A DNA stretch of 27,487 bases from Chromera velia. Lineage: Eukaryota; Sar; Chromeraceae. The stretch is taken from contig JAHBMJ010001236.1 in the NCBI GenBank assembly GCA_018398765.1, positions 1 to 27,487 of the forward strand. The letters are read 5' to 3'. How positions within the stretch are numbered: the stretch's first letter is position 1; each line of letters opens with the position of its first letter. This document shows positions 7,129 through 27,275 of this stretch, piece after piece. Below the pieces are notes generated by a model. It saw nothing but the letters and a program-made list of their open reading frames with translations. It was not told where the DNA came from and searched no databases. Made by a program: the position numbers and the translations under genes.

Positions 7129-7549
7129 ATTCGTGAGTGAAGTTCACGCAGAGATCAGGGAGGCAGAGATCGCGGGGCAGTATCCATTCGCCTTTTTCCG
7201 TGATGAGCTCCTGAGGAAGACTCGGGACACTGAGCTCTGGTTCCGTGATGAGCTCCTGAGGAAGACTCGGGACACTGACCTCTGGTTCCGTGATGAGCTC
7301 CTGAGGATGACTCGGCACACTCAGACCTGGAAAGAGGCAGTGGATCGGGGAGGAAATCTCTGGGAGATCAGCCTTGAGAAGGGCTCCGATGCAGGATCAC
7401 TCCATGGGTCCGTCCCCTTGACGGGGACGAGATGCTCGCAGAGACCATTCCAGGTCAGCTTGCCTGGGCGGTGCTCGTGGAGGAATGCATGGCGTCGCGC
7501 TGCGTCGGTGTGTGGGGTGATGCCCCAGAGAAGGTTTGATCTCCTTTAG
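7129..7549 (+). CDS. Segment with three 15-residue repeats
   Basis: The segment follows TTCACAG (ends 7128) and ends at TAG 7547-7549. After EVHAEIREAEIAGQ it carries three adjacent 15-residue units of the form FRDELLRKTRDTELW. The DNA repeat is exactly 45 bp and in frame, and the last unit is the most diverged. The tail after about residue 85 is Arg/Ser-rich and less protein-like, so the true exon could stop earlier. Amphipathic DELLRKTRDT units suggest a helical repeat. Family not recognised. Confidence 0.42.
7196..7330 (+). repeat. In-frame 45-bp tandem repeat, 3 copies
   Basis: Three head-to-tail copies start TTCCGTGATGAGCTCCTGAG. Copies 1 and 2 differ by one base over 45; copy 3 has several changes. 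The period is a multiple of three, so the repeat keeps the reading frame. Confidence 0.95.
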
Positions 7550-10813: not shown

Positions 10814-12145
10814 TCCCTTGAGGCACCCTTGAGGCACCCTTGAAACACTCTTTCAGGCGCCATTGAAACACCATTTGAGGCGCCATTGAAACACCATTTG
10901 CGGCACCACTGAGGCGCCGGGTTTGCACTCAATTGGAGGGTGTTACTATACTTTTCGGGGGCAAATTGATAAAAGATGACATTCTGAGGGACAATCAAAC
11001 ACTCGTACATATTTCCGCATTAAAACCGCATTGAAACACTCTTTCAGGCGCCATTGAAGCACCATTTGAGGTGCCATTCAACACCATTTGAGGCGCCCTT
11101 GAGTCGCCCTTGGGGCACTCTTGAGTCGCCATTGAAACACAATTTGAAACACCTTTGAGGCACCCTTGAGGCACCTCTGAGGCACCTCTGAGGCACCCTT
11201 GAGGCACCCTTGAGGCACCCTTGAAACACTCTTTCAGGCGCCATTGAAACACCATTTGAGGCGCCATTCATCACCATTTGCGGCACCACTGAGGCGCCGG
11301 GTTTGCACTCAATTGGAGGGTGTTACTATACTTTTCGGGGGCAAATTGATAAAAGATGACATTCTGAGGGACAATCAAACACTNCATTTGAGGTGCCATT
11401 CAACACCATTTGAGGCGCCCTTGAGTCGCCCTTGGGGCACTCTTGAGTCGCCATTGAAACACAATTTGAGGCACCTTTGAGGCACCCTTGAGGCACCTCT
11501 GAGGCACCCTTGAGGCACCCTTGAAACACTCTTTCAGGCGCCATTGAAACACCATTTGAGGCGCCATTCATCACCATTTGCGGCACCACTGAGGCGCCGG
11601 GTTTGCACTCAATTGGAGGGTGTTACTATACTTTTCGGGGGCAAATTGATAAAAGATGACATTCTGAGGGACAATCAAACACTGGTACATATTTCCGCAT
11701 TGAAACCGCATTGAAACACTCTTTCAGGCGCCATTGAAGCAGCATTTGAGGTGCCATTCAACACCATTTGAGGCGCCCTTGAGTCGCCCTTGGGGCACTC
11801 TTGAGTCGCCATTGAAACACAATTTGAGGCACCTTTGAGGCACCCTTGAGGCACCTCTGAGGCACCTCTGAGGCACCTCTGAGGCACCCTTGAGGCACCC
11901 TTGAAACACTCTTTCAGGCGCCATTGAAACACCATTTGAGGCGCCATTCATCACCATTTGCGGCACCACTGAGGCGCCGGGTTTGCACTCAATTGGAGGG
12001 TGTTACTATACTTTTCGGGGGCAAATTGATAAAAGATGACATTCTGAGGGACAATTAAACACTCTTACATATTTCCGCATTGAAACCGCATTGAAACACT
12101 CTTTCAGGCGCCATTGAAGCACCATTTGAGGTGCTATTCAACACT
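10814..12145. repeat. Satellite array: 11-bp subunits in ~380-bp higher-order units
   Basis: The basic unit is about 11 bp, TTGAGGCACCC / TTGAAACACCA and variants. These are interspersed with a longer conserved non-decaying block (GGTTTGCACTCAATTGGAGG and following ~100 bp). The marker CGGCACCACTGAGGCGCCGG starts at 10901, 11281, 11581 and 11961, giving units of 380, 300 and 380 bp. The short unit contains an N at 11384 and lost subunits. Minus-strand open frames run through the array with repeats such as GASRVPQ, but this follows from the low stop content of the 11-mer and is not evidence of a protein. The array ends abruptly at the 203-bp repeat. Confidence 0.92.
11384..11384. other. Assembly gap (single N) inside satellite
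   Basis: The N replaces roughly 59 bp present at the same place in the other units, so it marks an unresolved join and not one unknown base. Confidence 0.9.
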
Positions 12146-12348
12146 ATGCCATTTGGGGTCCATTGCTTTCAAAGTGCAACTAGCCAGTATGATGGACTAA
12201 GCAGAAACGGTTCGATCTACGAAGGGATCTCACCGCTGGACTATGCATTAGCCTCCGGCTTCTGCCCCGGCCTGGCTCCGTCGTAGCTATTGTCTTTTCA
12301 TTGGTATACTCAGGCACTAAGCTAGGAAGGTATACACAAATTTCAATT
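12146..12348 (+). repeat. 203-bp dispersed repeat, copy 1 (possible solo LTR)
   Basis: Aligned without gaps to 17180-17382, it differs at about 8 of 203 positions. It begins ATGCCATT and ends TTTCAATT, and the flanks differ outside these limits. It abuts the satellite on its left. A TAGCC...GGTTCGATC pair resembles pol III A and B boxes, but the spacing (about 28 nt) is too short for a tRNA. It may be a solo LTR or a SINE-like element. No clear target duplication was found. Confidence 0.85.
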
Positions 12349-12506
12349 GCGGTTAACAGCCGCAACCTCGATCAATCCGCGTTCACTCTTTTTTTTCTCT
12401 GGTGTTCGTTGGGTCGCTCGCTGGTGCTTTTCTGTCCTGAGTACTATCTTTGAGAAGTACAATTTTGATCTCTCTTGCGTGTGTAGTGCTTGGCTGCTGC
12501 AGCAGA

Positions 12507-17179: not shown

Positions 17180-17382
17180 ATGCCATTCAGGGTCCATTGC
17201 TTTCAAAGTGCAATTAGCCAGTATGATGGACTAAGCAGAAACGGTTCGATCCACGAAGGGATCTCACCGCTGGACTATACATTAGCCTCCGGCTCCTGCC
17301 CCGGCCTGGCTCCGTCATAGCTATTGTCTTTTCATTGGTATACTCAGGCACTAAGCTAGGAAGGTATACACACATTTCAATT
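17180..17382 (+). repeat. 203-bp dispersed repeat, copy 2 (possible 5' LTR)
   Basis: About 96% identical to 12146-12348 over the full length without gaps. It ends about 90 bp before the ATG of the gag-like N-terminal reading frame at 17472, the position expected for a 5' LTR. No tRNA-complementary primer binding site was recognised after it, so the LTR reading is inference. Confidence 0.85.
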
Positions 17383-17471
17383 CTTCTACGTCAACAAACG
17401 TATGGTACGACACGCCTAACTTTTACGGCCATCCACAACATCAGCAGTAGCCGTATACGAACGAGCAGACC

Positions 17472-17655
17472 ATGAGTGTTTCTTCGGGGACGCCCCCCCA
17501 AGACGTTTTAGAAGACGGCCACTCTGGCGAATCTCTCTCTCTCCGAGAGGAGAACAAACGCCTAAAGGCCCGACTGGCTGAAAAAGAGCTCGAAGAACTT
17601 CGCCGAGAAAACGCAGCTCTGAAGGCTGCCGCTCCTCGTACTATGACTCACCAGA
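17472..17655 (+). pseudogene. N-terminal gag-like coiled-coil fragment
   Basis: ATG at 17472 (context ACCATGA) opens a frame with a Ser/Gly start and then a clear heptad coil: LREENKRLKARLAEKELEEL and RRENAALK. Leucine-zipper-like N-termini occur in many retroelement Gag proteins. The frame runs into the GATATG satellite and ends there at a TAG near 17700, so the protein is cut off from the rest of gag (18020-19093). Confidence 0.45.
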
Positions 17656-17995
17656 AATCTCATATCCGAGATATGAGAAATATGAAAAAAGGTCATATTT
17701 AGATAGTGATATCCACTCATATCGCTCATATCTAAGATATAAAACAGATATGAGCTCATATCTGCTTCATATCTCATCATATCACATATGTGTGATATAC
17801 ATATCTGTCCATATCTCATATCAGATATGCATATCCGCTCATATCCCATATCGGATATGCATATCTGCTCATATCCACTCATAGATAGATAGTGATATCT
17901 CAATGAGATATGAAGCTCATATCTCGGTTCATATCGCTTCATATCTTGATATGACGATATGCAACGATATGATATCCAGATATGTTATATCAATT
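17656..17995. repeat. Palindromic GATATG/CATATC satellite
   Basis: About 340 bp built from GATATG and CATATC hexamers in both orientations. It contains long perfect palindromes, for example the 20-bp CAGATATGAGCTCATATCTG at 17745-17764. It lies between two parts of a gag-like coding sequence, so it probably expanded or inserted there. Confidence 0.93.
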
Positions 17996-18019
17996 TAGAT
18001 CATAGTCTCTAAGATGTAG

Positions 18020-19093
18020 CGGCGGCGGCGGTGGCGCAGTAGTAGTAGTAGTAGTAGGAGTACCGTCTTCCACCCTCATGATCTCAAGACTTGGGTCTGT
18101 GGCATTAAGAAAAGCGAGAAGGAATCCTGAAACATCGCCTTGAAGGAGATCTTTATTTTGTTCTGCCGCTTCGAGGAAAATCACCTCATGTACGCCATCC
18201 CAGCCTAAAAGGCAAACGCTTTTGTCACGGGCATCGAAAAATACTCTGCCCTCCGTGCCGTCATCTCTCCGATGGACGACAATGACCAGAAAAACCTCGA
18301 GACCGTCCAAAACAAGCTCACAAATTTTTTCGGCGGGCAGAAAGATCTCCACTTCGACCACACTATCACCGATCTCATCAACCTCCCGCAGACTGCTCCG
18401 TCTCTCCCACCAACTGCCCTCATTCACACCCTTGAACTCAAGTGCGCCCACCTCAAGAACCTCAATAAGAAGTATGAGATGGTTGCTGTGTACAACGGTC
18501 ATGGAGATCCGAATGACGTCACCAGCTTCCATGTCAAACGCCGTCTCCAAGCGCTTCTTCACCTTCTCTCTCACCACGAGGGAGAGCTTGCTTCTTTTTT
18601 TCTCCTTCGTTCCATCCCTGCTTCTTTACAAGGCCCTGTTGCGACGTCGGCAACAAGTCGCACATGGCACTCCCCCCAGGGCATCAAAGACACGTTCCTC
18701 ACGCATGTTCAGCGTTTGGGCTACAGTTTCGGCACCACCGAGCAGACTCTTACTGTTTTGACTGTCTTGAACCCTTCATTTCCCCCTTCTGATTCTTTTT
18801 TGGCTGCTTCACGCACTCAGACAGATACCAATCACTCCACTACTCGGAAGAACTCCCTGTGGTGTGACGACTGCAAATCAGACACACATACCAAGAAGTT
18901 CTGCCTGCAGCAGTTCTTTTATCCAGATTAGACACAGAAAGCCCATAAAGCAGGCCAGTGTCATTTTTTGGTCCGGAAACGTCTCGAATTGTGCTTTCCG
19001 AAAAAGTATTCGAATACTGCTTCTTCTCTGTCTGCCGCCGAGCCCGAGTCTCCGCGGCATGCTCTGCTACGCTTTGTTGACAACCTGATCTGA
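18020..19093 (+). pseudogene. Decayed retrotransposon gag with CCHC zinc knuckle
   Basis: One frame carries Gag-like sequence from about 18020 to TGA at 19091-19093, with in-frame stops TGA 18128-18130, TAA 18206-18208 and TAG 18929-18931. The open core (18209-18928, first ATG 18272) is helical and hydrophilic. Near its end is a zinc knuckle, CDDCKSDTHTKKFC, exactly C-x2-C-x4-H-x4-C, which binds nucleic acid in Gag proteins, notably of Ty1/copia elements. Sequence after the TAG still looks coding (QCHFLVRKRLELCFPKKYSN). No protease, integrase or reverse transcriptase was seen, so the element is truncated. A minus-strand frame over 17990-18577 is antisense. Confidence 0.6.
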
Positions 19094-21416: not shown

Positions 21417-21587
21417 CTGTGTTTCCATCCATCTGTCTCTTTCATTCAACAGAAGAAAGGAGAAGGGAGGCGATCGAAAGAGAGGGCCGGGTGGAGAGAA
21501 CAAAAAGGGAACGAAACTGGAAACGCGAGGAAGGAAATCCAGGAAGGAATGAGAGGAATGATATTGAAGGGGAAGAGATGCGAATGT

Positions 21588-21753
21588 TTATAAGAGAGGA
21601 AGGCAGAGAGACACCTCCACCCATTGAGACCGTCTTTCTACGACCCTGCAGACTGCCTCCCTGCCTGCCTGCCTGACCTTCACCAACGCCTCCACGAATT
21701 CGTCCATGTCCTGCTTGCTGTACGCGGACGTCGCGGTGATCCGAAATCTCGGC
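21588..21753 (-). CDS. Synthase exon 11, C-terminus
   Basis: 166 bp ending in TAA. Encodes PRFRITATSAYSKQDMDEFV, the conserved R-hydrophobic-S/T-x-T motif and final helix. About 28 residues beyond EALVKV exceed the usual end and include a (GGCA)n microsatellite. No GTNNGT donor is present there, so I take the stop as real. Confidence 0.82.
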
Positions 21754-22143
21754 CTGCATTCATTTCCATACAGAAAGAAAATGTCCAAAAATATCCAAAA
21801 TCTCATTTGGCCTGATTGGACATGCAGAAGGGCAAACAAGGAATTAGGGAAAGATATTCATAGGTGGGGTGGATAAATCTCGGTGGTCTGTCTGGCGAAT
21901 TTTGCTTCGGTGACGTACAGGACGCATGCAACAGAACAACATTCGGCTTCGTCTAACCGCCTCCCTCCCCCCCCTTTTTTTTTTAGATTTGACTTGTCAG
22001 CGAAGAAGCTCCAAACCGTGAGTGAGGGGAAAACTCGCCACTGGCTGAGTAAAGTTAAGGTCGACACAAACGTAAGAGAGAGAAGACACAACACTCTGCT
22101 CCTTTTTTGTGTCGATCGACAACCCGGCCCCCCTTCCGAAAAC

Positions 22144-22178
<35 letters not shown>

Positions 22179-23006
22179 CCTCCCAAACTTCTTCTCTACA
22201 ACTCCGTCCAAAGACCGACGTACGTACCTCCGTACGGGGCAGGCGGGTGCGCAGACTGCCGCCATGGCAAATCCCTTCTGCCGCATTCGTTCGGCCAGGG
22301 AGAGGACCCTGATGGGGTCGTCAGGCAACACCAGAGGCATCACGCACGTCGAGGCGTCACCCTCCAGGACATACCTGTACACACATAGACAGACAGACAG
22401 AGAGATCGTCTTTTCTTGCCTACACAACATCTCAGATCACTCAGTGGGTCTTCTTTTTCGTTCCACAAAACGAAACGATTCTTCGCGTGAAACGGAACAC
22501 AACTTTTTTGGCTGATTTCCTTGAGAGGAGAAAGAATCAAAAAACCAATCCGTCAGTGCCGCTTTCTCCCTCCCGCCCAGTTACCTCCTTTTCAGACCAA
22601 ATGGAAGGATCCCTCCCTCCACACACCCAGATGCCGTCAATTCTCTTATTCTTCCATCACCCATTTACTCCCCCACCTAGCCACTCACTCACTTGAGTTC
22701 TTGAGGGTATGCATTCATTTTCATACAGAATTCTTTCAAAAAATGAATGCACTCACCCACCCACTCACCCACTCACTCGCTCACTCACTGACTCACTTGA
22801 GTTCTTGAGGGTAGTCCTCCCTCCAGTGTCCGTTCCCCGTCTCGAGGGCCCTCCGGAGGTACCGCATGTTCTCTTTCAAAGAGTCTAAACGGCATTGCTC
22901 CGTCTGCAGAAAGAAACAACGCAAACAAACCACCAAGCAAGCAAAGGAGTGCGTGTATGCGAGCATACGTACTAGCAGCCCAAAAGTGCTTCTGCATGCA
23001 TGGCTC

Positions 23007-23038
<32 letters not shown>

Positions 23039-26000
23039 CTCGGGAGGGAACCCCGTCTTCTCTCGGTCACGTGCATCAATGAATGAATCCCGGCCGTTCG
23101 TTCAAAAAGTCCATTCAGAGAATCGAAGAAACCCTTCAGACAACTTAATTCGATGGCAGGTCCTTTTCTCGAACTGATCGATCGATCGAAAACCCACGAG
23201 CTGCCTGGTCTGCAGACAGAATCCTGTGACCCTTCAATTTTCATGAATTATCTTACATTATTTTTGCATTTTCGAAAGAATCTCTTCTCGTCTCGTGTCC
23301 TGAACTGCTGCAAGCAGACAGAATCCTGTGACCCTTCAATTTTCACGAATTATTTTACATTATTTAGGCATTTTCGAAAGAATCTCTTCTCGTCTCGTGT
23401 CCTGAACTGCTACAAGCAGACAGAATCCTGTGACCCCTCAGGTGTCTGTCAGTCACTTTTCGACTGACCTACCTGCATGAGCTCCAGAGCCTTGAGTGCT
23501 GCCCCTGCGTGATAGGCCGAGAGGGGGGCCGAGAAGACATTCCCCGGGGCGTGGAAGTCCAAAAACTCCACAGTGTTCCTGTCAGACACAATGTACCCCC
23601 CCACAGAGGAAAAGGACTTCGAGAACGTCCCTACGATCACATCTGCAAGAATTAAGGCGGAAAGGAGAAAAGAAAGAAAGAGAGAAAGAAAGAAAGAAAG
23701 AAAGAAAGAAGTAAATAAAGAAAGAAAGAAGGAAACGGGAAGTCAGGTCAGGTCTTTCTCCGGAGAGAAATTAATGCAGCCATACACTTATATCAATCGA
23801 CAGTCAGTTTTTTTCGGCAGGGAAAATACACACAGAGATGCACACCAGAAACGCAGCCCACAGAAACAAAGACACCCGAATAGACAGAACACCCTTTAGA
23901 ATGCTTAAAGATTCAGCAAACAAGACCTGGGCAAAGGGGAGGGAAGGGAAGGGATTTCAGTACAGGATTGTACCAAGAGTTGTCCTTTTGTCTGCAGAGA
24001 GATTCCGAATACATACACACACTAACGAAACCGCTTGCTCAAACGGAAGAAAGTGAGAGAAACAAGAATGCGGAGGAGCCGTCTTGTACGCCTTCCTGCC
24101 TGCCGAGCTAACAACGAACCGACCAACCTGCAGCTCCGGGACATCCGAAGTGTTCCTCCGCCCCCCTCCCCCCCTCTCCGAGCACCCCAAGTCCGTGAGC
24201 CTCATCGAGGATGATCTTCATCTGGTGCTCATCGCACAACCTGTTGTCGTTGTATGTATTGATTCTTTTTCATACATATTTATACATATACATAGAATTC
24301 TGTATGAAAATAAATGCATGCATCGAGGATGATCTTCATCTGGTGCTCGTCGCACAACCTGTTGTTGTTGTATTGAGGAGACGGGCGGGAAGGACGGAAA
24401 AGAGAAATTAATAAAATTTGAAGCAAAAAGTGACGTACGAAAGCCGTGCTGCGAAAAAGAAACTTGGAGACGACACCAATGCAGGGGGGAGACATCAAAG
24501 AGAGAAGACAAACAGGGATCGCAGCGAGAAAGAAAGGACGGACGGACGGAGGAAGCGAATGAACCAGTGAGCAGAAACACGCAAAAGCAAGCAACGAGTG
24601 CGGCCTGTCTGCCTGTCTGTCTGGCTGAAAGAAAGAAAGACTAACTTCCGTGCCACGGGCAGATTCCCGATATCGCCATCCATCGAGTAGACGCTCTCGA
24701 TGATCACCCACGCGTTCCTGTACTTGTGCCTGTTCTTCTCGACCAACTTCTTGCACTGCAGGCAGCAATGGAAGGAAGGAAGAAAGAAGGAAGGTGTCGC
24801 GGAGGGAGGGAGGGAGGGAGGGAGGCGGTTTGGATGGGAAGAGAGAGAGACAGAAAGACAGAAAGAAAGAGGCATGAGACATCCTCCCTTCCTTTCAATT
24901 TCTTTCCAGAAAACAAAAGAACACCACAAAGAAGCCTGCCAGTCATATACTACAGGAGAGACAAACAGACAAACAACCAACGCGTGTGCGAAAGAAAAGA
25001 AAACGACTGCATGGGAGGGATTTGTCCGTCCAGGCGCAACAATGATGCTTCGTTCGGCACGGGGCCTTCCACCCTCTAGAAAGGAAAACATTTTTCAGTC
25101 GACTCACTGACTGCATCAAAGTCGTTGTGTCGAAAAAAGAAGGTCTTCACTCCTGAAAGTTTGATACCCGCACGAAGGGAAGCGTGCGCATAGGCATCTG
25201 CAAAAATAACCTGCAGCAGACATCGATCAGCAGGGTGGCGGCGGAAGGAGGGAAAAAGACAGGTAAACAGATGCGTTTATATGAGACAACGAGTGTAATG
25301 AGAACGGACAGTTGCAGATGTGCTCTTGCAGCCTCCTTTGAGAAAAAAGTGAAACAACAAACCCAAAAGACGAGGCAGGCCAACGAAAGAATCGAAAAAG
25401 GAAGGCAAGAAGAAGAGAAAAAAAGAGAAACCGAAAGAAGAAGAAGAAAAAAAACGGCTGGCTGACTGACATCCCCCTTCCGCAGCAGCCCCGCAATTGC
25501 AGAAGCGCAAGCGAGGTACCCGGCAGAAAGGCACAACGCATCATCCCTGCAGGCAGGCAACATCCCCCCCAATTGCATTCATTGAAGAAAAACTCAACTC
25601 AGCGCCCCAACTGGTAGTCAACTTCCAAAATAAACTCTCGCACGGCAGGAAAATAACTGACGCACGCAAGGACCCATCAAAATTTGCGTGCGTCAACAAA
25701 CTCTCATTGCACGGCAGGAAAATCGCGTCCTCCCACCCACAGATATACCGACATAAGGATGGATGGACGCACGGGTGTTTCCTTCCTTCGGATTTTTCTC
25801 TTTTTTTGTTTCCTTCCTCATTCCTTCTGATGAAGAAAGAAAGCGCACCTCCATCCGAATTCATTGGCGCTCTCTCTTGCGCCCTATCCCACCGACCCAC
25901 CTGCCGAGCCACGTTGCGAGTTTCTTCTCCAATTCCCGAAGAATCAGCGTGTTGCCCCCGAGCATTCGAGGTCCGTGGTTGCCGCTCGCGTACTGTCGTG

Positions 26001-26388
26001 CCGCTGTAATGGCGGCCTCCTGCAGGAAGGAACAGCGAGAGAGTGTACACACACCTTCACAAAGACATTCACACAAACGCACACGTATATGTACACTGAT
26101 GGCGGCATCCTGAGAGCGCGAGTGCGTGTGCCGCCCTCATCGCTGCATGTACAGAAGAATCGTCTGACCGACCGATATACAGCAGCAGCCGTATGCTTCC
26201 TCTCATGCCCTCTCTGCATTCAATACTCGATCCTGTCCCTTCCTCTTCGCAGACACTCAAAGAAGAAGTGTTCAGGATACCCAAAATCTCACTGCCCTTC
26301 CTCACGACCCGACCAAGCAGATTCTGTGAACGATCGAACGACTTCGAGACGAGAGAGCCTCTCTCTCTCTCTCACCGTCCCATCCCCT

Positions 26389-26451
<63 letters not shown>

Positions 26452-26664
26452 CGAGACCGACCTGAACTCGGTCGTCCCTTACGAAGTCCAGGTAAGCGTA
26501 CGAGGAGTACACGCGGCACGGAAGGTCATTCACAATCACCTGCACTCACACAATCCCCCACCCACACGCAAATCGCATCGCACTTCTTCTCTCGAAAATC
26601 ACTCAAGTCTCCAGACAGCAAGCACGGAGGGACGAGAAACTGGATAAGCTGTATGCCCTCAGAT

Positions 26665-26699
<35 letters not shown>

Positions 26700-27275
26700 C
26701 GGGGGAGCGAGAGAGAAATGCCACTCCAATCCCCCACTTGCCCATTTGATTTCCAACCGAAGAGACTTTCTGCCGATCTAAATGCACTCTCCATCTATCA
26801 GTGGGTAGTTTCTTTCCCTTCCCTCTTTTCTTTATCTATCTAATTGCCTGGATACGTCGGAATGTCCCGATTCTGTCCGCAGCATGCATTTGCTTTCATA
26901 CAGAATTCTTTTGTTGTATGTATGTATGTATGTATGTATGTATTTAATTGCCTTGATACGTCGGAATGTCCCGATTCTGTCCGCAGCAAGGAAGGACGCA
27001 CATCCAAATTTCCTTCCGGTCATTCCTTCCGACCTTTGTGTGTGCTTTCTGGTTCAAAGGTGGCTGTGCGTCTTTTCGTCCATGAAAAAGAAAAACAGTC
27101 ACAAGCTCATATGCAGACAGACAGACACACGCACCTCGTCTCTACTCCGCACAGAGTTCATGGTCCACATGAATGGCCACTTTGGGCCCATGCTTCTCTT
27201 GAGGTCTAGGTAGGACTTCTGCTCGCTCTCCTTCTCCTCGATCGGAAGACCGAGAGCCAGCTTGCCCAGCAACAC
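21588..27275 (-). CDS. Alpha-oxoamine synthase (serine palmitoyltransferase-like), 11 exons, 5' end missing
   Basis: Eleven exons join in phase to 441 codons plus TAA. The family is PLP-dependent fold-type I and condenses an amino acid with an acyl-CoA, losing CO2. Landmarks in order: YASGNHGPRMLGGNT, a GY segment after DDALCLSAGY, DAYAHASLRAG, ESVYSMDG, DEAHGLGVLGEGGRG (Asp pairs with the pyridine nitrogen), GTFSKSFSSVGGY (Lys forms the aldimine), and RFRITATSAYSKQDMDEFV at the C-terminus. Length fits the ~400-residue family. Serine palmitoyltransferase is my preferred call because of GTFSKSFSSVGGY, but AONS (BioF) or KBL cannot be excluded; ALAS looks unlikely. All ten donors are GTNNGT. 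The 47 residues of the first visible exon precede the usual domain start, and the start codon is outside the window. Confidence 0.9.
21741..21814. repeat. Element copy E at acceptor of exon 11, with imperfect flanking duplication
   Basis: TGCATTCATTTCCATACAGA begins at 21755 and matches copy A over 21 bases with one change. On the sense strand its end supplies the TGCA of the acceptor TGCAG. The first exonic bases (CCGAAATCTCGGCCTG, 21741-21756) recur with four extra bases at 21795-21814. Confidence 0.6.
22148..22175. repeat. (CA)n microsatellite in synthase intron 10
   Basis: Fourteen CA units; reads GT on the sense strand. Confidence 0.95.
22228..22374 (-). CDS. Synthase exon 10
   Basis: 147 bp, acceptor GTGTACAG, donor GTACGT. 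Encodes CVMPLVLPDDPIRVLSLAER and then GFAMAAVCAPACPV, matching the C-terminal domain pattern of a conserved Pro-hydrophobic strand and a later P-P/P-x-C loop. Confidence 0.9.
22687..22813. mobile_element. Element copy A with 23-bp direct flanks spanning the exon 9 donor
   Basis: Identical 23-bp direct repeats lie at 22687-22709 and 22791-22813; the second includes the last 17 bp of exon 9 and the GTGAG of its donor. Between them is a 42-bp core (22710-22751) with perfect 12-bp inverted ends, TGCATTCATTTT and AAAATGAATGCA, then a CTCACCCA-type simple repeat. Confidence 0.8.
22797..22903 (-). CDS. Synthase exon 9
   Basis: 107 bp, acceptor CTGCAG, donor GTGAGT. Encodes CRLDSLKENMRYLRRALETG, the family's linker helix to the C-terminal domain. 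Its last 17 bp and the donor are duplicated in the following intron at 22687-22709. Confidence 0.88.
23007..23038. repeat. (GACA)n microsatellite in synthase intron 8
   Basis: Eight GACA units in the intron between exons 8 and 9. Confidence 0.95.
23212..23441. repeat. 102-bp intronic tandem duplication, 2.25 copies
   Basis: Units start GCAGACAGAATCCTGTGACC at 23212, 23314 and 23416 (partial). Full copies differ at about 5 positions. It ends about 25 bp from the donor of exon 8. The period is divisible by three, so an open plus-strand frame runs through it by chance. Confidence 0.95.
23473..23642 (-). CDS. Synthase exon 8, catalytic lysine
   Basis: 170 bp, acceptor CTTGCAG, donor GTAGGT. Encodes VGTFSKSFSSVGGYIVSD; the Lys of FSKS is the expected Schiff-base residue. 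Continues with DFHAPGNVFSAPLSAYHAGA and the helix ALKALELMQ. Confidence 0.95.
23667..23733. repeat. (GAAA)n purine tract just upstream of exon 8
   Basis: On the sense strand this is a TTTC-type polypyrimidine tract ~25 nt before the CTTGCAG acceptor of exon 8, placed where a splicing polypyrimidine tract is expected. Confidence 0.9.
24128..24240 (-). CDS. Synthase exon 7, DEAHGLG cofactor motif
   Basis: 113 bp, acceptor ACAACAG (not TGCAG), donor GTTGGT. Encodes MKIILDEAHGLGVLGEGGRG with the PLP-contacting Asp and His. The first 38 bp plus 14 intronic bases are duplicated upstream in the intron at 24321-24372, around an inserted element. Confidence 0.93.
24203..24372. mobile_element. Element copy B with 52-bp direct flanks spanning the exon 7 acceptor
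   Basis: Two 52-bp direct copies, 24203-24254 and 24321-24372, differ at two positions. The first holds the functional start of exon 7 and its acceptor. The second is a decoy exon start in the intron. The 66-bp insert (24255-24320) has a 10-bp inverted pair TTTTCATACA/TGTATGAAAA, and its right end (reverse complement) carries the family core TTTCATACAGAATTCT. Confidence 0.85.
24646..24755 (-). CDS. Synthase exon 6, ESVYSMDGD motif
   Basis: 110 bp, acceptor CTGCAG, donor GTTAGT. Encodes VIIESVYSMDGDIGNLP, a highly conserved family strand. It leaves two bases (AA) completed by the G that starts the next exon, giving Lys. Confidence 0.92.
25112..25210 (-). CDS. Synthase exon 5, HAS motif
   Basis: 33 codons, acceptor CTGCAG, donor GTCAGT. 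Encodes DAYAHASLRAGIKLSGVK. The His stacks on the PLP ring in the family; the usual preceding Asn of NHAS is Ala here. Confidence 0.9.
25471..25546 (-). CDS. Synthase exon 4, cofactor-domain GY segment
   Basis: 76 bp, acceptor CTGCAG, donor GTCAGT. Encodes DDALCLSAGYLACASAIAGL, matching the family's D-A-x-x-x-x-S-G-Y block that contacts the cofactor phosphate. Confidence 0.9.
25632..25723. mobile_element. Different hairpin insert (D) with 23/26-bp direct flanks
   Basis: A perfect 12-bp inverted pair TGACGCACGCAA/TTGCGTGCGTCA (25658-25669, 25684-25695) forms a hairpin. It is flanked by AAACTCTCGCACGGCAGG... (25632-25654) and the same block with three extra bases (25698-25723). It lies inside intron 3. 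Confidence 0.75.
25901..26019 (-). CDS. Synthase exon 3, GNHGPRMLGG motif
   Basis: 119 bp, acceptor CTGCAG, donor GTGGGT. Encodes YASGNHGPRMLGGNT, the glycine-rich block shared by serine palmitoyltransferase, AONS and KBL, followed by the helix ILRELEKKLATWLG. Confidence 0.92.
26393..26448. repeat. (CA)n(GA)n microsatellite in synthase intron 2
   Basis: CA units are followed directly by GA units, close to the donor of exon 2. On the sense strand it reads TC then TG. Confidence 0.95.
26462..26539 (-). CDS. Synthase exon 2, substrate-loop start
   Basis: 26 codons, phase 0, acceptor GTGCAG, donor GTCGGT. Contains RVYSSYAYLDFVRDDRV, which corresponds to the family's conserved N-x-YLG region, with Asp in place of the usual Gly. 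Confidence 0.82.
26668..26696. repeat. (AC)n microsatellite in synthase intron 1
   Basis: About 14 AC units; GT on the sense strand. Confidence 0.95.
26841..26988. mobile_element. Element copy C with 44-bp direct flanks in synthase intron 1
   Basis: 44-bp direct copies at 26841-26884 and 26945-26988 differ at one position (G/T). The 60-bp insert starts TGCATTTGCTTTCATACAGA and GAATTCTTTTG, the family end, and its other side is a (TATG)n run. It is wholly intronic and spans no recognised splice site. Confidence 0.85.
27135..27275 (-). CDS. Synthase exon 1 (of those visible), upstream of core domain
   Basis: 47 codons in phase 0, acceptor CCTTCCAG, donor GTGCGT. The peptide (VLLGKLALGLPIEEKESEQK to SVRSRDE) is hydrophilic and not part of the classic fold. 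It may be an N-terminal extension or the end of a fused domain. Confidence 0.75.

Follow-up and report, generated by a model that had tools for sequence, protein, structure and literature searches.

A high-copy family of short palindromic elements between long, site-specific direct repeats in Chromera velia

We describe a family of ~60-bp palindromic elements in the genome of Chromera velia, which came to light in a stretch of 27,487 nucleotides (GenBank assembly GCA_018398765.1, contig JAHBMJ010001236.1, positions 1 to 27,487, forward strand), called the window in the following. Copies of the element lie within a gene that encodes a predicted relative of serine palmitoyltransferase. The family is high in copy number, its members stand in private flanking sequence between long direct duplications of variable length, exon edges are duplicated in the one gene modelled, and some sites are tandem arrays. 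The sites are probably insertions of a short, non-autonomous, hairpin-forming mobile element that has been copied widely and placed at pairs of nicks about 25–55 nt apart.

A 25-bp core end recurs in the window at 21755 (one mismatch), at 22710 (exact), at 24299–24318 on the minus strand (exact) and at 26885 (two mismatches), while 100 shuffles gave 0 matches. These are, in this order, the four sites E, A, B and C, for which the initial annotation had reported a common end, and all of them lie where it had placed them. They are composed as follows.

22682..22709, plus strand: left direct repeat of A, 28 bp strong; the gapped alignment reaches 22657
22710..22764, plus strand: palindromic element of A, exact 25-bp core end and inverted second arm; hairpin z-score −3.16
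22786..22813, plus strand: right direct repeat of A, straddling the 5′ splice site CTCAA/GTGAGT at the end of exon 22903-22797 (minus strand)
24203..24255, minus strand: downstream copy of the direct repeat of B, holding the start of exon 24240-24128; the sole copy that continues the open frame
24256..24320, minus strand: palindromic element of B, core end on the minus strand; fold z-score −1.9
24321..24373, minus strand: second direct repeat of B, upstream in the gene, within an intron of the model
26833..26884, plus strand: left direct repeat of C, 52 bp with three mismatches
26885..26936, plus strand: element of C, with the core end and without a convincing inverted arm, terminating in a TGTA run
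26937..26988, plus strand: right direct repeat of C; the site is in the intron between model exons 27275-27135 and 26539-26462
21755..21784, plus strand: degenerate or truncated element of E, right limit approximate; its flank repeat is not significant

The long flanking copies that had been claimed for all four sites are present at A (28 bp; when gaps are allowed, the alignment runs on through low-complexity sequence to ~50 bp), B (53 bp, two mismatches, 24203-24255 / 24321-24373) and C (52 bp). The 16/20-bp copy claimed for E does not hold up, as its score of 19 stays below the 95% control level of 23.5 and is not significant taken alone. Inverted repeats occur in A and B, as had been noted; when the elements are folded as single strands, A alone stands out (z-scores A −3.2, B −1.9, C −0.75, E −0.6).

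The genome searched was the window's own assembly (177.8 Mb in 4040 contigs, the window being contig C1234). Sixty core loci were fetched, 30 as the first exact hits of the 25-mer and 30 as the earliest places, in contig order, where an internal 15-mer occurs. Removal of array copies and refetches left 44 distinct sites, with A and B of the window included. The left flank of each site was compared with its right flank by gapped local alignment. The 99th percentile among 1892 mismatched flank pairs, a score of 31, served as cut-off; the maximum of this control was 56, and a lone score slightly above 31 is therefore no proof. In this genome search and flank test, of the kind proposed in the initial annotation, 39 of the 44 sites carry direct repeats above the cut-off, and sites that were chosen by the internal 15-mer and absent from the first set pass at a rate of 16 of 18. 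Among the five failing sites, exact repeats of 11, 13 and 15 bp are present at three (L011, L027 and L018), L034 is weak and L059 has none convincing. Copies bare of direct flanks, which had been named as speaking against insertion with duplication, are thus not what was found.

The repeats span 16–65 bp at 37 sites (L009 and L039 were set aside because their repeats include element sequence) and 26–53 bp at 34 of these 37; some of the sites are arrays. The spacer between the repeats has a median of 61 bp and a range of 22–132 bp (39 sites). The two copies of a repeat are 80–100% identical with a median of 95.5%, six of the 37 pairs being identical, which points to insertions of many ages, some of them young-looking. 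The repeat edges have no clear target motif, with no position above 0.25 bits. In a displaced control at the same loci, 13 of 252 values exceeded the cut-off; two of them are other element copies and the rest are simple, tandem or coding repeats, including a 102-bp tandem repeat of the window.

The 25-bp end (TGCATTNATTTTCATACAGAATTCT) has 692 + 751 = 1443 matches with up to three mismatches in the assembly, against 0 for its reversed control, and the 15-mer (TTTCATACAGAATTC) has 934 + 991 = 1925 matches with up to one mismatch, against 3 + 3 = 6 in the control. All these genome-wide counts are of matches, with each unit of a tandem array counted. An all-versus-all comparison of the fetched loci yielded six partial matches and no pair with common flanks at both sites; one partial match adjoins the L008 site, and its partner in L032 lies more than 400 bp from the L032 site. 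The element is a high-copy family with private flanks. Flanks common to the copies, the other outcome named in advance as unfavourable, were not seen, since no locus pair shares flanks at its sites.

The ideal element that we infer is a 50-bp palindrome, TGCATGCATTYATTTTCATACA-GAATTC-TGTATGAAAATRAATGCATGCA. It is a construct; its 26-bp centre occurs within three mismatches at 44 places (array units included), exactly at one of them, and most copies differ from it in their middle. In four fetched loci with this centre (L091–L094) the repeats measure 45, 15, 28 and 43 bp, values that were not set against a control. Forty-seven elements (36 from the 39 sites, with L009, L017 and L039 omitted, and 11 from the core-independent scan described below) were parsed into copies of a 29-bp arm; 34 have an inverted second arm and the remaining 13 a single arm or direct arms only. 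Simple-repeat stretches occur inside some elements. A 29-bp direct-arm variant recurs 201 times within two mismatches (array units counted; control 0), which implies that some interior variants are inherited and suggests that element copies descend from copies. Of 25 elements, 23 have the same letter in both arms at one diagnostic position (6 C/C, 17 T/T, 2 mixed; Fisher p 0.0003), as do 20 of 22 when the array copies of L019 and L050 are collapsed (p 0.0006).

Repeat pairs were also sought independently of the core, in 69 loci (229 kb) that had mostly been fetched for the core originally, with repeats of 19–75 bp and spacers of 15–160 bp. The scan returned 60 rows, of which 40 have core or core-like spacers, 2 a second palindromic family (see below) and 18 other spacers. 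Of the 42 rows that hold either palindromic family, 31 only return the match that had been targeted. The 27 rows away from a targeted match are therefore the more informative; 11 of them have a core or core-like spacer. Spacered long duplications accompany the core element far more often than any other sequence seen, in an untargeted sample that is small. With these extra copies, the high copy number, the private flanks and the site-specific long duplications, the mobile family with widely staggered cuts envisaged in the initial annotation is well supported.

The gene model consists of 11 minus-strand exons placed by eye and by homology and is a prediction. The joined exons, all with GT-AG edges, form one open frame of 412 amino acids, and the predicted product is similar to serine palmitoyltransferase structures (best E 3e-48) and to the Pfam family Aminotran_1_2 (E 1.7e-42). 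The placement of the four sites in introns of one gene, as it was initially annotated, applies to C, which is inside the first intron of the model. It is too simple for the others, because the repeat of A straddles the 5′ splice site of exon 22903-22797, the repeat of B straddles the 3′ splice site of exon 24240-24128, and E abuts a splice site, its end giving the TGCA of the 3′ splice site TGCAG/G of exon 21753-21678 (minus strand). At B the open frame runs on from the downstream copy alone; if the upstream copy and the element were read through as well, they would add 118 bp (1 mod 3) and bring in a stop. In the relative of solved structure 8guh the segment duplicated at B is single and in line, an empty state at the protein level that is seen in the alignment of one relative. 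Within the predicted gene model the overlap of the repeats with splice sites is firm. A new intron formed by the element was not seen in this one gene, where A and B lie at the edges of introns with much other sequence.

Genome-wide, an overlap with splice sites is suggestive. The word TGCAG of the 3′ splice site occurs in 13 of 39 repeats where 4.6 were expected (p 0.001), as one of eight motif sets tried, picked after a first look at 13 words. A general splice-site matrix gave only a modest excess for either site (p 0.18, 0.07, 0.03 and 0.06 at four thresholds). An enrichment of AG/GT in the repeats, as for new introns arising by tandem duplication, was considered and rejected (9 of 39 against 7.1 expected). 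In 20 single-frame stretches adjoining sites, Pfam gave five EGF-type matches, all below the cut-off and all in one frame of L049 away from the repeat; L050 had two sub-cut-off matches. Five paralogous matches of L049 run through most of the repeat and end at or just past the inferred exon edge, on the exon side only.

Some sites are tandem arrays. Grouping the first 100 places listed for the 15-mer gives 75 clusters, and 11 of these are head-to-tail arrays with a period of 68–120 bp. In the fetched arrays the period equals repeat plus element (31 + 46 bp in L003, 19 + 54 in L019, 26 + 42 in L036, 65 + 55 in L050), which would be explained by unequal exchange between the long repeats. On contig C3687 (11287–14612) there are at least 22 exact core copies with a 119-bp period and gaps, which may represent an incipient satellite that grew out of a single insertion. 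In the window, the 102-bp tandem repeat (23212–23440; 2.2 copies, 95%), whose unit contains ATTTTCATGAATT..GCATTTTCGAAAGAAT, may be an old array from the same kind of event.

A second palindromic family also has a member in the window.

25655..25694, plus strand: F2, second palindromic family, TGACGCACGCAA..TTGCGTGCGTCA, 40 bp, between repeats 25629-25654 / 25695-25723; hairpin z-score −6.1

Its flank repeats of 26–29 bp are imperfect, with a gap, and score 38. A search with TGACGCACGCAA at two mismatches gave 398 matches where its control gave 137, and repeats around the match are missing from most of the 30 loci that were fetched on this basis. A stricter pattern gave 17 matches, five of them in one array on contig C74, and 0 in the control; of two small loci fetched for it, L095 carries a 17-bp repeat according to the scan, and L096 a repeat judged by eye. 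Arrays of the second family are present in L064, L074–L077 and L079–L080. In L016, half of the second family (TGACGCACGCAAGGAC) is joined to the core element between one repeat pair. The 3 kb of L064 contain two elements of the core type along with an array of the second family, with long repeats, a local clustering of insertions.

Elsewhere in the window, two near-identical stretches of ~200 bp in direct orientation (~12147–12350 and ~17186–17390), 5 kb apart, resemble by eye a pair of long terminal repeats, and the stretch 17472–19000 after the second copy has no Pfam match. At 10820–12140 there is, again by eye, a satellite-like array of GAGGCACC / TTGAAACACC units with a higher-order repeat and one N near 11384.

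We propose that one strand of the palindromic element can fold into a hairpin, and that an insertion would begin with two nicks on opposite strands, ~25–55 nt apart. A copy of the element would then be synthesised or joined between the ends, and fill-in of the long overhangs would duplicate the target. If an exon edge and its splice site fall within the duplicated stretch, one copy could go on serving the exon, and the other copy together with the element would become intron. Later, unequal exchange through the duplication may build tandem arrays of duplication plus element. Two nicks at this distance and fill-in would explain the duplication whichever template is used. For the template, two routes appear about equally likely, each of them possible at somewhat less than even chances: target-primed copying of a hairpin RNA by a reverse transcriptase, or joining of hairpin DNA by a nick-and-join route with a nuclease. 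The variable, long duplications of systems of long and short interspersed nuclear elements (LINEs and SINEs) count for the RNA route, and the L016 chimera and the direct reiterations of arms could be template jumps; the hairpin capacity and the matching of the arms count for the DNA route. If pressed, we would name target-primed copying, as a guess.

A more far-reaching version, which we offer tentatively and hold to be rather unlikely as a whole, is that the family is a new kind of mobile element, that its palindrome is re-made from one arm in each cycle, that nicking occurs 25–55 nt apart, that the duplication acts as a safety device and that at least two families use the same route. Re-making from one arm would lead to matching variants in both arms. 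The long duplication would be a built-in safety device in that, when the insertion hits an exon edge, one such edge would survive intact together with its splice site.

Several observations weigh against insertion of a mobile element as proposed. No autonomous partner, transposase or mobilising enzyme has been linked to the ends, and no transposase search was made. The junctions, judged by inspection, have no visible A-rich or simple-repeat 3′ tail, and 34 of 47 elements possess an inverted second arm, which sets them apart from a typical SINE. The LINE-type endonuclease PF14529 has only 7 matches in the genome. Reverse transcriptase (RVT_1), taken over all classes together, has at least 150 scored matches from 1759 first-look candidates, with no link to the element. 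A head derived from RNA polymerase III transcripts (tRNA, 7SL, 5S) was not found in the Rfam scan, which covered the elements of the window only; over 21500–27200 it returned five microRNA matches, all below the gathering scores, and nothing from any further family with an E of 1 or less. A looser pairing of arms (33 pairs) showed no significant co-variation (p 0.19). No full nucleotide empty site was found, and L055 has no paralogue. Finally, 16 of the 27 untargeted repeat-plus-spacer rows lack the core; satellites, tandem arrays and coding repeats account for 12 of them (six in the window satellite at ~11.0–12.1 kb, one at 7196 and two in L059 in tandem arrays, three coding repeats in L041), and among the other four L015 resembles a degenerate core by eye.

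The alternative with most in its favour, although unlikely in our view, is host repair, in which natural staggered breaks have both overhangs filled, giving tandem duplications, and abundant hairpin DNA is captured as filler. In excerpts of PMC8355091, breaks by paired nickases give tandem duplications, 3′ overhangs with random tips mostly duplicate almost the entire overhang, and overhangs of 49 bp were used at one site pair. Long repeats common to two palindromic families, and the joining of pieces of both in L016, are also as this explanation would have it. It would lead one to look for duplications without the element, and filler-free duplications (gap below 15 bp) without the core amount to 5 rows in 241.6 kb against 11 untargeted core rows, a small comparison in sequence mostly fetched around the core; of the five, L084 and L088 are the same segment, and L039 and L059 are in arrays. 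The repair process capturing a filler hairpin, which the initial annotation had put forward as its second explanation, is for this reason disfavoured as a general process and possible as enzymology.

A DDE transposase might instead have mobilised an ordinary miniature inverted-repeat transposable element (MITE), and replication slippage at the hairpin might have produced the long repeats afterwards. This would suit the inverted second arm in 34 of 47 elements, and slippage or unequal exchange does operate here, as is clear from the arrays at 11 of 75 sites. However, at single-unit sites the repeats are close to the element on both sides with no constant short duplication visible inside them, and slippage requires a pre-existing repeat, which short constant duplications hardly provide. 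A duplication length that is not set by the element also argues against an ordinary DDE transposase, and we regard this course of events as very improbable. Still more remote is a convergence of minisatellites on a common AT-rich unit without any mobility. Some sites are indeed arrays, and some elements do contain simple-repeat stretches, but the same 25-bp core stands at very many places, the flank part of the unit is local while the core is shared, and the private flanks contradict convergence. Insertion of a mobile hairpin element at widely spaced nicks thus remains the explanation that we prefer.

DNA transposons normally make target duplications of a short, fixed length of 2–11 bp. MITEs and other DNA transposons with terminal inverted repeats resemble the present element in being short, non-coding and high in copy number, with inverted arms in most copies (34 of 47 here). 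They differ in that the duplications here are site-variable at 16–65 bp, with no constant short duplication found, and in that the interiors of the elements are mosaics of one arm; an excerpt of PMC7789003 gives 10–15 bp for MITE duplications. Introners are similar in having inverted repeats and direct repeats at exon-intron edges and in that their duplications can carry splice sites. According to excerpts of the same paper, the hairpin introners of Amoebophrya have direct repeats of 3–5 nt, and earlier introner families have 3–9 bp (PMC9860276, PMC7789003, in part). Unlike introners, the elements of the window lengthen existing introns and are not whole introns, and AGGT is not enriched in their repeats.

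LINE and SINE retroposition produces template jumps and chimeras. Its duplications are variable and sometimes long, as here, whereas a ~60-bp palindromic element with no visible 3′ tail and no partner LINE found is unlike it. The young class of Entamoeba SINE1 has duplications of mostly 18–24 bp in the part of PMC2996970 considered, and a duplication of 126 bp is given for R9 as cited in an excerpt of PMC6895275. Break-induced tandem duplications (CST/Pol alpha fill-in, PMC8355091, in excerpt) share the fill-in of long overhangs and a similar duplication size, and differ in that the joint here very often holds one specific palindromic family. Vaughn and Bennetzen in 2014 reportedly described 'patch-mediated' insertions in rice, which we group with these break-induced duplications. 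Among the titles and abstract openings of open-access papers returned by literature searches, none describes such a family in Chromera or elsewhere.

Duplications of mostly 26–53 bp around a ~60-bp palindrome do not fit introners (3–9 bp) or MITEs (10–15 bp) as these are characterised in the excerpts cited above. If the insertion step is as we infer, the family would amount to a large natural archive of paired nicks at wide spacing and of how they are filled in. The same step would allow a mobile element to lengthen introns and to shift splice sites directly, and it suggests a testable answer to the question of how a genome can tolerate insertions at exon edges.

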